A stretch of 48,731 nt of DNA, taken from NCBI RefSeq assembly GCF_030682845.1, contig NZ_JAUXNK010000108.1:1-48731 (forward strand), written 5' to 3'. The notes below the pieces were generated by a model that was not told the DNA's origin, searched no databases, and saw only the letters and a program-made list of their open reading frames with translations. Below are positions 36,423 to 46,128 of this stretch, piece by piece. The first letter of the stretch is position 1; the number at the start of each line of letters is the position of its first letter. Made by a program: the position numbers and the translations under genes. Origin of the DNA: Methanolobus sp. Its GTDB lineage: Archaea; Halobacteriota; Methanosarcinia; Methanosarcinales; Methanosarcinaceae.

Positions 36423-37400
36423 ATGTTTATCGGAGTAGATCATGGCACAACTGCAATGCGTTTTGCATCGAACGGCACGGGAAATGCCCAAGTGATCAGG
36501 CTGGAAGTTCCAAGGCAGGACATCGCTGTGATGAGTGAAACACAAGTGATATCCTTGATAGAGGAAAACTTTGGTGTGAAGAGCAATGAGATCAAAATGA
36601 TTGCTGTTACTTATTCTATGGGCGACAGCATCACATCCATTGAGAATATCCGTCATGTGCAGAACCGTGGTGTCAGAAGTCTTGAAGGTGCAGGCAAGAA
36701 GACCGGGGGAGGCAGCCGCGTGTTCGATGCCATACGGAATTCTGGTATCACTGCTGTCGTCATACCTGGGATACATGATAAAAGCCTTACTGATCCCCGC
36801 CTTAACGTCTTCTCCCATTCAACAAGCCCCGAGAAAATAGGCATCGCCTATCATGCTTTCTGCATGGGCTTTGACAATTTCGTCCTATCGGACATAAGTT
36901 CCAATACTGTCACCCTTGGAGTTGCAGGTGGCAAGGTCATCGGGGCTATAGATGCATGTATCTTCGCTCCGGGTCTTATCCATGGCCCTCTTGATGTGCA
37001 GGCGCTGAGAGATGTGGATGCCGGCAGGATCACTGCCAATGATGCTTTCACCAGAGCAGGCGTACTCAGGCACACTCCTTTCTCAGATCGGCACGAACTG
37101 TTAAAAGCAGCACTTAAAGGCGACTCTGAAGCTCTTCTGGCGCTGGATACGATAGCTCTGTTCGCAGCCATGGAAGTCTCCTGTATGCAGATCCTTTTGA
37201 AGGACTATGGTGCTGTAGGAGAGGTGGTCCTGGAAGGCTCAGTTGGTGAGGTTCCCCGTGTGGTTGAAAAGATAAATGCTCATCTGGGGATAAAATGCCA
37301 TGTGCTTGACAGATGGAGCGCTGCCATAGGATGCGCTGAGATCGCACGCGACATTGCCGGTGGCTCTGATAACATATTAGGGATCCCGGTGAATTTCTGA
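36423..37400 (+). CDS. mmp12: Methanogenesis marker protein 12 (ASKHA fold)
   Basis: A 325-residue protein with an actin/hexokinase-like phosphate loop at the start (FIGVDHGTTAMRF) and a second conserved GVAGGKVIGAIDACIFAPGLIHGPLDVQALRDVDAG block. It belongs to the marker genes that are present in essentially all methanogens; its biochemical role is not established, an ATP-dependent function is likely from the fold. Preceded by DUF2103. The convergent iorA-like gene ends 64 bases downstream. Confidence 0.9.
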   Translation: MFIGVDHGTTAMRFASNGTGNAQVIRLEVPRQDIAVMSETQVISLIEENFGVKSNEIKMIAVTYSMGDSITSIENIRHVQNRGVRSLEGAGKKTGGGSRVFDAIRNSGITAVVIPGIHDKSLTDPRLNVFSHSTSPEKIGIAYHAFCMGFDNFVLSDISSNTVTLGVAGGKVIGAIDACIFAPGLIHGPLDVQALRDVDAGRITANDAFTRAGVLRHTPFSDRHELLKAALKGDSEALLALDTIALFAAMEVSCMQILLKDYGAVGEVVLEGSVGEVPRVVEKINAHLGIKCHVLDRWSAAIGCAEIARDIAGGSDNILGIPVNF

Positions 37401-37463: not shown

Positions 37464-38996
37464 TTAGAATCTCACACACTTACATTTAACATATATCGCG
37501 CAAACGCCCTTGACCTGCATCTTGTTATTGATCATCCTTTCCAGTTCCTTTGAGGCTGCATTTTCTCCCAGTTCCTTGACGCTTGTATCTATGTCAAATG
37601 TCTCAAGTTCAGGGACAAGTGCACGGACAGCTTCTTTAATGTCAGGTGTCGGCTGTCCTCCTGTCATGGCTGCGACATCATTCTGAAGCACCAGGACAAG
37701 AACATCTGACCCGTGAGCCACTGCGTTTATCAGTCCCACAATTCCGGAATGCGCAAGCCCGAAATCTCCGATGACTGCAATTCCCTTCTTAGTGAAACCG
37801 CAGGCTGTGGAGATTGCTCCTCCAAGTGAGAAACCGGTGTCAACGGCTCCCAGGGGCTGTGGGGCCGTGCGTATGGAACATCCCATGTCCCCTGCAACCA
37901 TTACGTCAAGCCTGCGCAGTATATTGTAAAGGGGCATGTAAGGACAATCGCTGCATATCGGCTTTGGCCCTCTTTCCGCTATTGTCTGGATGGATGTATA
38001 TTCCTTTACGTGCACTCTGTCCAGATTCTCCAGTGCAAACCCGATGTGTTCCCTGTCCACAAACCCGTATGGAAGATGCCCTGTCTCCTTTCCTGACACA
38101 TTGCCAAGTATCCTGATGTGGGATTCTATGAAAGGCTCGCTTTCCTCTGCAACAAGGATATTTTCGTGCTTCTTCACAAAATCTGTTACCAGCTTATAGG
38201 GAAAAGGTGATACTACGCCAAGCGCGAGATGTGAAACATCTGCCCACCTCTCGTCTTCTGACAGGAAGTCATCAACGATTGCAGATGGGGTGCCGGAAGA
38301 TATGATCCCTATGGGCCCTCTGACAGATACTCTGTTCAGGTGGCCCTTTTCTGCCTCATCGCTGAGGAGTGGGTAAGACTCCAGATGGAATCGCTGGTGT
38401 TTGCCGTGCATTGTGAGCTTCCACATGGACGGGTCAAAGAGCTTTACCTGGCTGCCGGAAGAGCGGGCCATTCTCCGGATACTGCCTTCGCTTTTCTCAA
38501 GCCTGTCCGTGACCCTGACTATTACGGGTGTGCTTGCCTGCTCTGATATCTCAAAGGCCCGGGTAAGACAATCATAGGCACTTTCAGGGCCAGACGGGTC
38601 AAACACTGCAACTTCGGCTATCTTCCCGTACCATCTGGAGTCCTGCTCGTTCTGGGACCCCAAAGCTGCGGGGTCATCACCGGCAAGGATGACCACACCG
38701 GCACCAATTGTGTGCGTGACTGCTGTTATAAGGGGGTCCGCCAGGAGGTTCATCCCAACATGCTTGACGAGCACGAGTGACCTGCAACCGGAGACTGATG
38801 CTCCAAGTGCGGTTTCCATTGCCGATTTCTCGCTGGTGAACCATTGAAAATCGTAAGTGTTATCATTTTCCTGTATGAACTTCTCAGCAACAGCAGTAAT
38901 TGGGAAACCTGCTACAGCAGTTATTCGCTTTACATCACTGTCGATTGATGCAAAATACAGCGCATAGAGTCCGGTAGTATGTATTGTGTTCTGCAT
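37464..38996 (-). CDS. IorA-like TPP enzyme lacking the C-terminal ferredoxin domain
   Basis: A 510-residue relative of indolepyruvate:ferredoxin oxidoreductase alpha subunit. The N-terminal pyrimidine-binding domain (GFPITAVAEKF, FTSEKSAMETALGASVSG), a middle domain, and the TPP diphosphate domain (IAVIGDFGLAHSGIVGLINAVAHG followed by LQNDVAAMTGGQPTPD) are present. Standard IorA (600+ residues) ends with two 4Fe-4S clusters; here the protein ends in KCKCVRF with no ferredoxin motif, and the usual CPGCPHR-type stretch reads CSDCPYMP. No beta subunit is adjacent. It starts 10 bases after mmp11, so the two form an operon. Substrate and electron acceptor are unknown. Confidence 0.82.
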   Translation of the reverse strand: MQNTIHTTGLYALYFASIDSDVKRITAVAGFPITAVAEKFIQENDNTYDFQWFTSEKSAMETALGASVSGCRSLVLVKHVGMNLLADPLITAVTHTIGAGVVILAGDDPAALGSQNEQDSRWYGKIAEVAVFDPSGPESAYDCLTRAFEISEQASTPVIVRVTDRLEKSEGSIRRMARSSGSQVKLFDPSMWKLTMHGKHQRFHLESYPLLSDEAEKGHLNRVSVRGPIGIISSGTPSAIVDDFLSEDERWADVSHLALGVVSPFPYKLVTDFVKKHENILVAEESEPFIESHIRILGNVSGKETGHLPYGFVDREHIGFALENLDRVHVKEYTSIQTIAERGPKPICSDCPYMPLYNILRRLDVMVAGDMGCSIRTAPQPLGAVDTGFSLGGAISTACGFTKKGIAVIGDFGLAHSGIVGLINAVAHGSDVLVLVLQNDVAAMTGGQPTPDIKEAVRALVPELETFDIDTSVKELGENAASKELERMINNKMQVKGVCAIYVKCKCVRF

Positions 38997-39006
38997 GTTG
39001 TCCCTG

Positions 39007-39927
39007 TTACTTGTTCATATCAATTTTGGTGTCTGGGCGGACAGACTCATCGGGCCGGGCAAACCATGCCAGTGCAGCCAGTGCACCGATGATGCCGTTG
39101 CCATCTATCCAAACCTCAACATCATGCTCCTTTGCATACCGGAGGGCGTATTTCCTGCTGAGCTCGCCGCAGCGGCATTTCGTGCTGTACTCCTGAACTC
39201 CGGTGGCATCGAAATCAGAAAGCACTACCATGCCCGTATCCTTTGAGACGCTGTATTTTATGAGTGCTGTCCTGATGCTCTGCAGCAATTCTTCCTTCGC
39301 AGCAGCGCTGACACAGGCGAATTCCAGCACCGTGGAAACGCAGTTCTGGGTCCTGGCGGCCACCGGGAAGAGTTGCACAAGGGAGTGTGACAGGTATATG
39401 GATTCCACGCAGTCAAGTTCTTTTGCAATATTATGGGTCAGGGTCCAGGTGGCTCCCTTTTCCTTGGTGTCGGTGTCATCTATGCCGATGATGACCCTCT
39501 CCCTTCTGGGTACTATAATGATACCCTTTGCGGCACGTCCTCCGCCGGATTCGGTGCACTCGTAGCGCAGAACTCCCTCGGCAAGGGCTCTGCATTTGGT
39601 TGCACCGACCCCTCCTCCGCCAAGTCCTGCATAAGTTATGGATACTTCGTCGCCTTCAACAAGCACTGACTCGATGCCTGCCGCGAACCTGGAAGCCTTG
39701 AGTTCAAGATGTGATGTGCCTGTCTTCACAAGGTACCGTATCATGTTCCCGATGGACCTCGTGTCCAGGATCAGGGGTGAGTGTGAGTAATGGAACTTCG
39801 ACCATGCGGCACCACCGTAGCAGTTGGTATGCTCGATAATCTCCGCATATTCATTGTTTTTGTCGCATACAGCATATATCCCTTTATACGGAATAGTGTA
39901 TGGATCTTTAAGCTCTATCTCTTTCAT
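39007..39927 (-). CDS. mmp11: Methanogenesis marker protein 11
   Basis: A 306-residue protein restricted to methanogens, with a segment like TiaS (VIIGIDDTDTKEKGATWTLTHN) and a YAGLGGGGVGATKCRA block; TiaS modifies tRNA-Ile with agmatine, but the function of Mmp11 is not known. Several conserved Cys (CRCGE) near the C-terminus. ATTTAAAC lies about 28 bases before ATG, suggesting leaderless expression. Downstream in the operon is the IorA-like gene. Confidence 0.9.
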   Translation of the reverse strand: MKEIELKDPYTIPYKGIYAVCDKNNEYAEIIEHTNCYGGAAWSKFHYSHSPLILDTRSIGNMIRYLVKTGTSHLELKASRFAAGIESVLVEGDEVSITYAGLGGGGVGATKCRALAEGVLRYECTESGGGRAAKGIIIVPRRERVIIGIDDTDTKEKGATWTLTHNIAKELDCVESIYLSHSLVQLFPVAARTQNCVSTVLEFACVSAAAKEELLQSIRTALIKYSVSKDTGMVVLSDFDATGVQEYSTKCRCGELSRKYALRYAKEHDVEVWIDGNGIIGALAALAWFARPDESVRPDTKIDMNK

Positions 39928-44199: not shown

Positions 44200-44475
44200 A
44201 TGATAATCAGACCAATCGGAGAACGAGTATTAATCAAAGCTATCAAGAAAGCGGAAGTTACAGAAAGCGGCATCTACATTCCCGATTCTGCCCAAGAAGA
44301 GAAAAAAGAGGGCATAGTGGTCGGAGTAGGTACTTTTGAGGATGGCAAGGCGCTCCCGCTCAAAGTGGGGGACCATGTTATCTACGGTGGGTACAAGAGC
44401 GATGAGATTGATTTCAACGGTGAATCACACATGTTCATCGATTTCAAGGACTTATTGGCAGTAGTTGAGGAGTGA
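44200..44475 (+). CDS. groES: Co-chaperonin GroES (group I)
   Basis: A 91-residue 10-kDa co-chaperonin of bacterial type: IIRPIGERVLIKAIKKAEVTESGIYIP, then VVGVGTFEDGK, then VGDHVIYGGYKSDEIDFNGE. The mobile loop holds SGIYIP rather than the commonest GGIVLP. It caps GroEL encoded 45 bases downstream. Group I chaperonins in Methanosarcina are an established transfer from bacteria and coexist with the archaeal thermosome. Confidence 0.97.
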   Translation: MIIRPIGERVLIKAIKKAEVTESGIYIPDSAQEEKKEGIVVGVGTFEDGKALPLKVGDHVIYGGYKSDEIDFNGESHMFIDFKDLLAVVEE

Positions 44476-44505
44476 AACTGCTGTATTTATAAATAATATA
44501 GTTAG

Positions 44506-46128
<1,623 letters not shown>

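Follow-up and report, generated by a model that had tools for sequence, protein, structure and literature searches.

The IorA-like TPP enzyme that Methanolobus sp. encodes beside methanogenesis marker 11 (Mmp11) very probably takes part in coenzyme B synthesis and, judging from the sequence comparisons described here, is likely to be the 2-oxosuberate (alpha-ketosuberate) decarboxylase of that pathway, with 7-oxoheptanoate as its product. It is a strong candidate for this decarboxylase because many methanogens place the genes inside the coenzyme B gene set. Methyl-coenzyme M reductase, which forms biological methane, takes its electrons from coenzyme B, for whose synthesis AksA, AksD, AksE and AksF extend 2-oxoglutarate by three carbons, yielding 2-oxosuberate; White's labelling work reportedly placed free 7-oxoheptanoate after 2-oxosuberate. 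2-Oxosuberate and a semialdehyde have been described as intermediates of the coenzyme B route, for which two proteins had no assignment and the genes acting after 2-oxosuberate were unknown in 2011 (PMC3087415); the route was still called unknown in 2025, when Mmp16 or L-ASST was suggested for the sulfur step (PMC12068725). Among the open-licence papers searched, no gene assignment was found for 2-oxosuberate decarboxylation, nor any study that connects coenzyme B with either Mmp11 or an IorA-like enzyme.

In the window, the whole stretch of 48,731 nucleotides that was analyzed, Mmp11 (306 aa; 39007..39927, minus strand; TIGR03280, 364.2 bits against a cut-off of 255.8) lies upstream and the TPP enzyme (510 aa; 37464..38996, minus strand) downstream on the same strand. 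The 10-base spacing reported by the first-pass annotation is correct, running from the Mmp11 stop to the TPP-enzyme start (38997..39006, minus strand), as is the convergent position of Mmp12 (36423-37400, plus strand; 375 bits). The functional link that it had drawn to Mmp12 was not supported, since Mmp12 was near the pair in only three of the long neighborhoods examined (the window, L066 and L067), and the link is weak and local. A function tied to Mmp12, PaaK or ACT was rejected because few loci repeat those genes near the pair. Elsewhere in the window, a bacterial-kind GroEL chaperonin, preceded by a small ORF, was seen at 44200-46128, unusual for an archaeon but known in Methanosarcinaceae.

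The pairing of Mmp11 with the TPP gene is beyond chance and far from confined to this strain: among 47 loci holding both genes, a set that counts a few genomes twice, 43 keep them on one strand and no more than 300 bp apart, and in many the two overlap by 4 bases. The TPP gene is adjacent in 29 of the best 30 Mmp11 loci, G385 having one intervening gene, and in the f2 and f6 genomes the two genes are on separate contigs. The pair is conserved over a large branch of methanogenic archaea (group names of the compared loci were inferred from gene content and kinship), and mcrA is present across the families carrying the TPP enzyme. Only full-length IorA-like proteins were found among the genomes sampled from Methanobacteriales, Methanomethylicota and two mcr-bearing groups, f9 and f11, which must therefore use another decarboxylase, a point against the 2-oxosuberate assignment that leaves the TPP enzyme as one solution among several.

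The first-pass annotation had suggested that the enzyme, as yet undescribed, serves a methanogen-specific cofactor or modification, and the survey of Mmp11 neighbors narrows this to coenzyme B, as aks genes adjoin the pair outside Methanosarcinaceae. In all 22 Methanomicrobiales-like loci (L089, L101 and L183-L202), Mmp11, a radical SAM gene, a short form of the TPP gene, AksA, AksD and AksE follow one another on one strand, with AksF behind them; DUF7714 stands between AksE and AksF in 19 of these, and in the other three (L191, L194, L195) it lies divergently beyond Mmp11. Long ORF calls in GC-rich loci, such as one of 639 aa in L101, are start artefacts overrunning the radical SAM gene. Among the Methanocella-like loci, the TPP gene, AksA and AksD-AksE-AksF-DUF7714 occur together in f13 (L083-L086) and f6 (L076, L077), and AksA and AksD adjoin the TPP gene in f2 (L072-L074). 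A motif in the LeuD-like small subunits separates the leucine type from the coenzyme B (homoaconitase) type, with YLRT in the solved Methanocaldococcus (Mj) homoaconitase small subunit (2pkp) and YLVY in the Mj isopropylmalate isomerase (3vba); all five TPP-linked small subunits checked (AksE) carry YLRT or YLRS. In the Methanosarcinaceae loci compared, the Mmp11-TPP pair is without linkage to aks genes, which counts against the assignment to 2-oxosuberate decarboxylation. The window's genome has AksE (YLRT), DUF7714 and AksF adjacent on one contig and a leucine-type copy on another; its AksA and radical SAM genes lie apart from these. DUF7714 of this genome (L213:7414-8259, C79) sits next to AksE/AksF, likewise in L183-L202.

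Further evidence for the chemistry of this slot comes from Candidatus Methanomethylicota, where all 10 loci carry an acetolactate-synthase-class TPP enzyme between AksE and Mmp11. The order is AksA with Mmp4/MtxX (both seen in most of the loci whose sequence extends that far), AksD, AksE, the TPP enzyme, Mmp11 and a GMC oxidoreductase, and the AksE copies checked have YLRS. BLAST showed no meaningful similarity between this TPP enzyme and that of the window; that a second, unrelated one occupies the position speaks for a requirement for 2-oxoacid decarboxylation there. A plain acetolactate synthase was rejected for it, as the eight genomes tested all hold separate true acetolactate synthases (752-786 bits) and the aks-linked gene scores below the cut-off. 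Mmp4/MtxX lies between AksA and AksD in L107, L109, L115, L116, L117, L120 and L178 of this phylum, and in L103, L105, L106 and L108 it comes after Mmp11 or after the radical SAM gene. By its gene neighborhood, Mmp4/MtxX may belong to coenzyme B synthesis.

In the proposed reaction, the Aks enzymes make 2-oxosuberate from 2-oxoglutarate and three carbons, TPP would add to its keto carbon, CO2 would leave and the intermediate would be protonated to give free 7-oxoheptanoate, which would then be converted to 7-mercaptoheptanoate and joined to threonine phosphate. The enzyme would have descended from the IorA branch of the 2-oxoacid:ferredoxin oxidoreductases, losing the ferredoxin domain, leaving the IorB/gamma (CoA-side) partner distant and retaining the ligands of the cluster adjacent to TPP, and Mmp11, which has a TiaS domain and likely binds ATP, would serve a later step of the route. 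We infer the substrate, the reaction and the role of Mmp11 from the conservation, gene clusters, motifs and predicted folds observed.

The TPP enzyme keeps the pyrimidine and diphosphate domains, as first annotated, with Pfam matches to POR_N (PF01855) and TPP_enzyme_C (PF02775). Its match to TIGR03336 (IOR_alpha) scores 304.8 bits, short of the cut-off of 650.9, and covers model positions 12-495 of 595; because the match ends there, the C-terminal 2x[4Fe-4S] ferredoxin domain is absent, in agreement with the initial description, and the chain stops just past C507. The PYR domain spans residues ~9-170 (38487..38972, minus strand), followed by a middle domain at residues ~190-330 (38007..38429, minus strand) that is largely gone from the short form of the Methanomicrobiales-like genomes, in which PYR and PP remain, and the PP domain occupies residues ~345-507 (37476..37964, minus strand). 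The TPP/Mg residues Glu56 (codon 38829-38831, minus strand, in the PYR domain), GD411 and N439 are invariant in all 49 family members (29 long and 20 short), as are the cysteines C348-x-x-C351, C373 and C507, which also recur in 15/15 IorA sequences. When the PP domain is aligned by profile with 5b46_B (Sulfolobus OFOR beta), these four cysteines correspond to C12, C15, C46 and C197, which we take to be the ligands of its single [4Fe-4S] cluster. These residues leave the idea of an enzyme devoid of any Fe-S cluster unsupported; since the proximal ligands are kept, the enzyme probably holds a [4Fe-4S] cluster next to TPP, with just the two outer clusters missing. Conserved cluster ligands have no obvious need in a plain decarboxylase and count against that assignment. 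In the Methanosarcina-like enzyme of 604 aa (L063:7077-8891), an acidic, repetitive stretch of ~90 residues is inserted after the TPP domain and ahead of the final cluster cysteine. For the AlphaFold2 (AF2) model of the window enzyme (pLDDT 84), the closest well-superposed solved structures in a fold search were OFORs, at an rmsd of about 5; a profile search of the PDB gave only weak OFOR alpha matches and a direct PDB sequence search with the protein no matches.

The four invariant cysteines could also belong to an oxidative enzyme, a CoA- and ferredoxin-using oxidoreductase that borrows IorB and an external ferredoxin and turns a product of the Aks enzymes into an acyl-CoA, such as pimeloyl-CoA made from 2-oxosuberate on the way to coenzyme B or biotin, and OFORs of the MmOGOR type, represented among the fold matches by 6n2n, are active without a ferredoxin domain. 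We consider this unlikely: no gamma/CoA domain was found in the chain (Pfam) or the operon, and no gamma or IorB gene next to the TPP gene, either in the window or in the operons compared; IorB pairs with true IorA, and an aldehyde-level intermediate is required for coenzyme B (PMC3087415). The original remark that no beta partner lies nearby was thus accurate for the window.

With 2-oxosuberate decarboxylation as the preferred assignment for the TPP enzyme, we lean toward placing Mmp11 in the coenzyme B pathway as well, where it would probably act at a later ATP-using step, either threonine ligation or phosphorylation. The TiaS-like segment noted earlier is real: the C-terminal half of the Mmp11 AF2 model (pLDDT 88.5) superposes on TiaS 3amt_A with an rmsd of 1.9 over 153 columns (Foldseek), and the kinase-like TCKD domain (39112..39492, minus strand; PF22641, 48 bits) has an invariant G-x-D-x-T-D with the DDTD-like motif kept, a predicted fold that makes ATP use by Mmp11 likely. 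The mcrA-bearing f9 and f11 genomes mostly have only a weak, TiaS-level Mmp11 match. The Mmp11 match spans ~1.5 kb in L101, L183-L190, L192, L193, L196, L199 and L200 and looks like two tandem Mmp11-type genes, the first of which, in L101, has 447 aa with an N-terminal extension. In Methanobacteriales (among L113-L182), Mmp11 regularly lies downstream of leucine-type LeuC-LeuD-LeuB and RibH. Linkage of Mmp11 to these aks-like genes was dropped as evidence for coenzyme B because the small subunits are mostly of the leucine type (YLIY/YLTL).

Mmp11 is not strictly the methanogen-only protein that it had been called, as homologues occur, paired with a radical SAM gene, in Geoglobus-like, Mnemosynella, Bathyarchaeota and Actinomycetota records; their presence in some non-methanogens counts against the decarboxylase assignment. 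A published proposal gives Mnemosynella a CoM/CoB-type thiol:fumarate reductase (PMC9635834). In four records titled as Actinomycetota MAGs (L139, L141, L154, L175), an Mmp11 homologue directly precedes a radical SAM gene of the MSMEG_0568 type, with no aks genes nearby. The loci of Geoglobus-like genomes, Mnemosynella and Actinomycetota in which Mmp11 and radical SAM occur without aks, together with the aks-unlinked pair of Methanosarcinaceae, would suit a scheme in which some other methanogen cofactor or modification is the product of the TPP enzyme, Mmp11 and the radical SAM protein, and aks genes lie nearby through a shared precursor or regulation. Against this stand the one-strand cluster in 22/22 loci and the independent TPP enzyme that fills the same slot in another phylum, and we regard the scheme as improbable.

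The same genome encodes, on another contig, an intact IorA (608 aa, 894 bits) with IorB (289 bits) beside it, and no IorB was found beside the TPP gene in the window or in the compared TPP loci. Of the suspicion that the TPP gene is a decaying paralogue, the part that foresaw a full IorA elsewhere is confirmed and the part that foresaw decay is not, as Glu56, Asp411, Asn439 and the four cysteines remain invariant in the family and the gene is therefore not a decaying copy. In the tree, which excludes the short-form sequences L196 and L199, the 15 IorA rows form one clade (support 100/100) with the window enzyme outside it, the short forms form a separate clade (100/100), the 29 long forms including the window enzyme group at weaker support (90/84), and a few divergent rows are without placement. 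Thr31, a substrate-side residue of IorA in the PYR domain (14/14 IorA rows with letters), is Tyr or Phe in 49/49 family members. The enzyme is highly unlikely to be a second indolepyruvate oxidoreductase, diverged or decaying, that acts on aromatic 2-oxoacids. Such a reading would fit the common ancestry with IorA but is disfavored by the score short of the family threshold, the missing ferredoxin domain, the lack of a nearby IorB, the altered substrate motif, the separate clade, the invariant catalytic residues and the true IorAB in the genome.

We know of no precedent for passing the TPP intermediate to sulfur rather than to a proton, and a role of this kind, with the enzyme joining in thiol formation and the cluster as electron or sulfur donor, seems very remote. 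Cluster ligands conserved without a ferredoxin domain and a thiol-forming step without a proven enzyme (PMC12068725) speak for it, but DUF7714, a sub-threshold relative of CoM_XcbA (NCBIfam CoM_XcbA_fam, 73-85 versus 150 bits), is the better candidate for that step of coenzyme B synthesis. Returning to 2-oxosuberate decarboxylation, a joint arrangement is conceivable, somewhat short of even chances, in which a non-oxidative, IorA-derived decarboxylase that retains its Fe-S cluster, DUF7714 for aldehyde to thiol, and Mmp11 with radical SAM for the threonine-phosphate end form one cluster; the Methanomicrobiales-like cluster would tentatively then hold most of the missing half of coenzyme B synthesis. 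If the decarboxylase assignment is true, the decarboxylation in coenzyme B synthesis would have a named gene, DUF7714, Mmp11, radical SAM and Mmp4/MtxX would form a short candidate list for the remaining steps, a marker protein would gain a role, and a ferredoxin oxidoreductase would be recast as a decarboxylase.

Among known systems, the window enzyme shares with IorA (TIGR03336) its ancestry, PYR-middle-PP order, TPP residues and four proximal-cluster cysteines, and differs in score (305 versus 651 bits), in lacking the ferredoxin domain and a nearby IorB, in the Thr31 to Tyr/Phe change of its family, in its separate clade and in having aks-linked relatives. It resembles the one-cluster OFORs (Sulfolobus OFOR 5b46, Magnetococcus OGOR 6n2n) in the C12/C15/C46/C197 pattern and fold, whereas it is a single chain without a gamma/CoA-binding domain and is probably not oxidative. 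ComDE, the sulfopyruvate decarboxylase of coenzyme M, offers the same logic of a TPP enzyme leading through an aldehyde to a thiol cofactor, and like the short form it has only PYR and PP; however, neither the window enzyme nor the L089 enzyme matched TIGR03845/TIGR03846 at E<=0.001, a relative scoring 19 bits versus 148. The acetolactate synthase/benzoylformate decarboxylase class shares TPP decarboxylation chemistry and supplies the enzyme of the Methanomethylicota slot, but shows no meaningful BLAST similarity, and ALS-class structures match the model only with domains rearranged (rmsd 18-21). Mmp11, finally, is like TiaS, the tRNA(Ile2) agmatidine synthetase, in its kinase-like TCKD domain, DDTD motif and close superposition, and unlike it in scoring 18 bits versus a cut-off of 600 and in having an N-terminal domain of its own.
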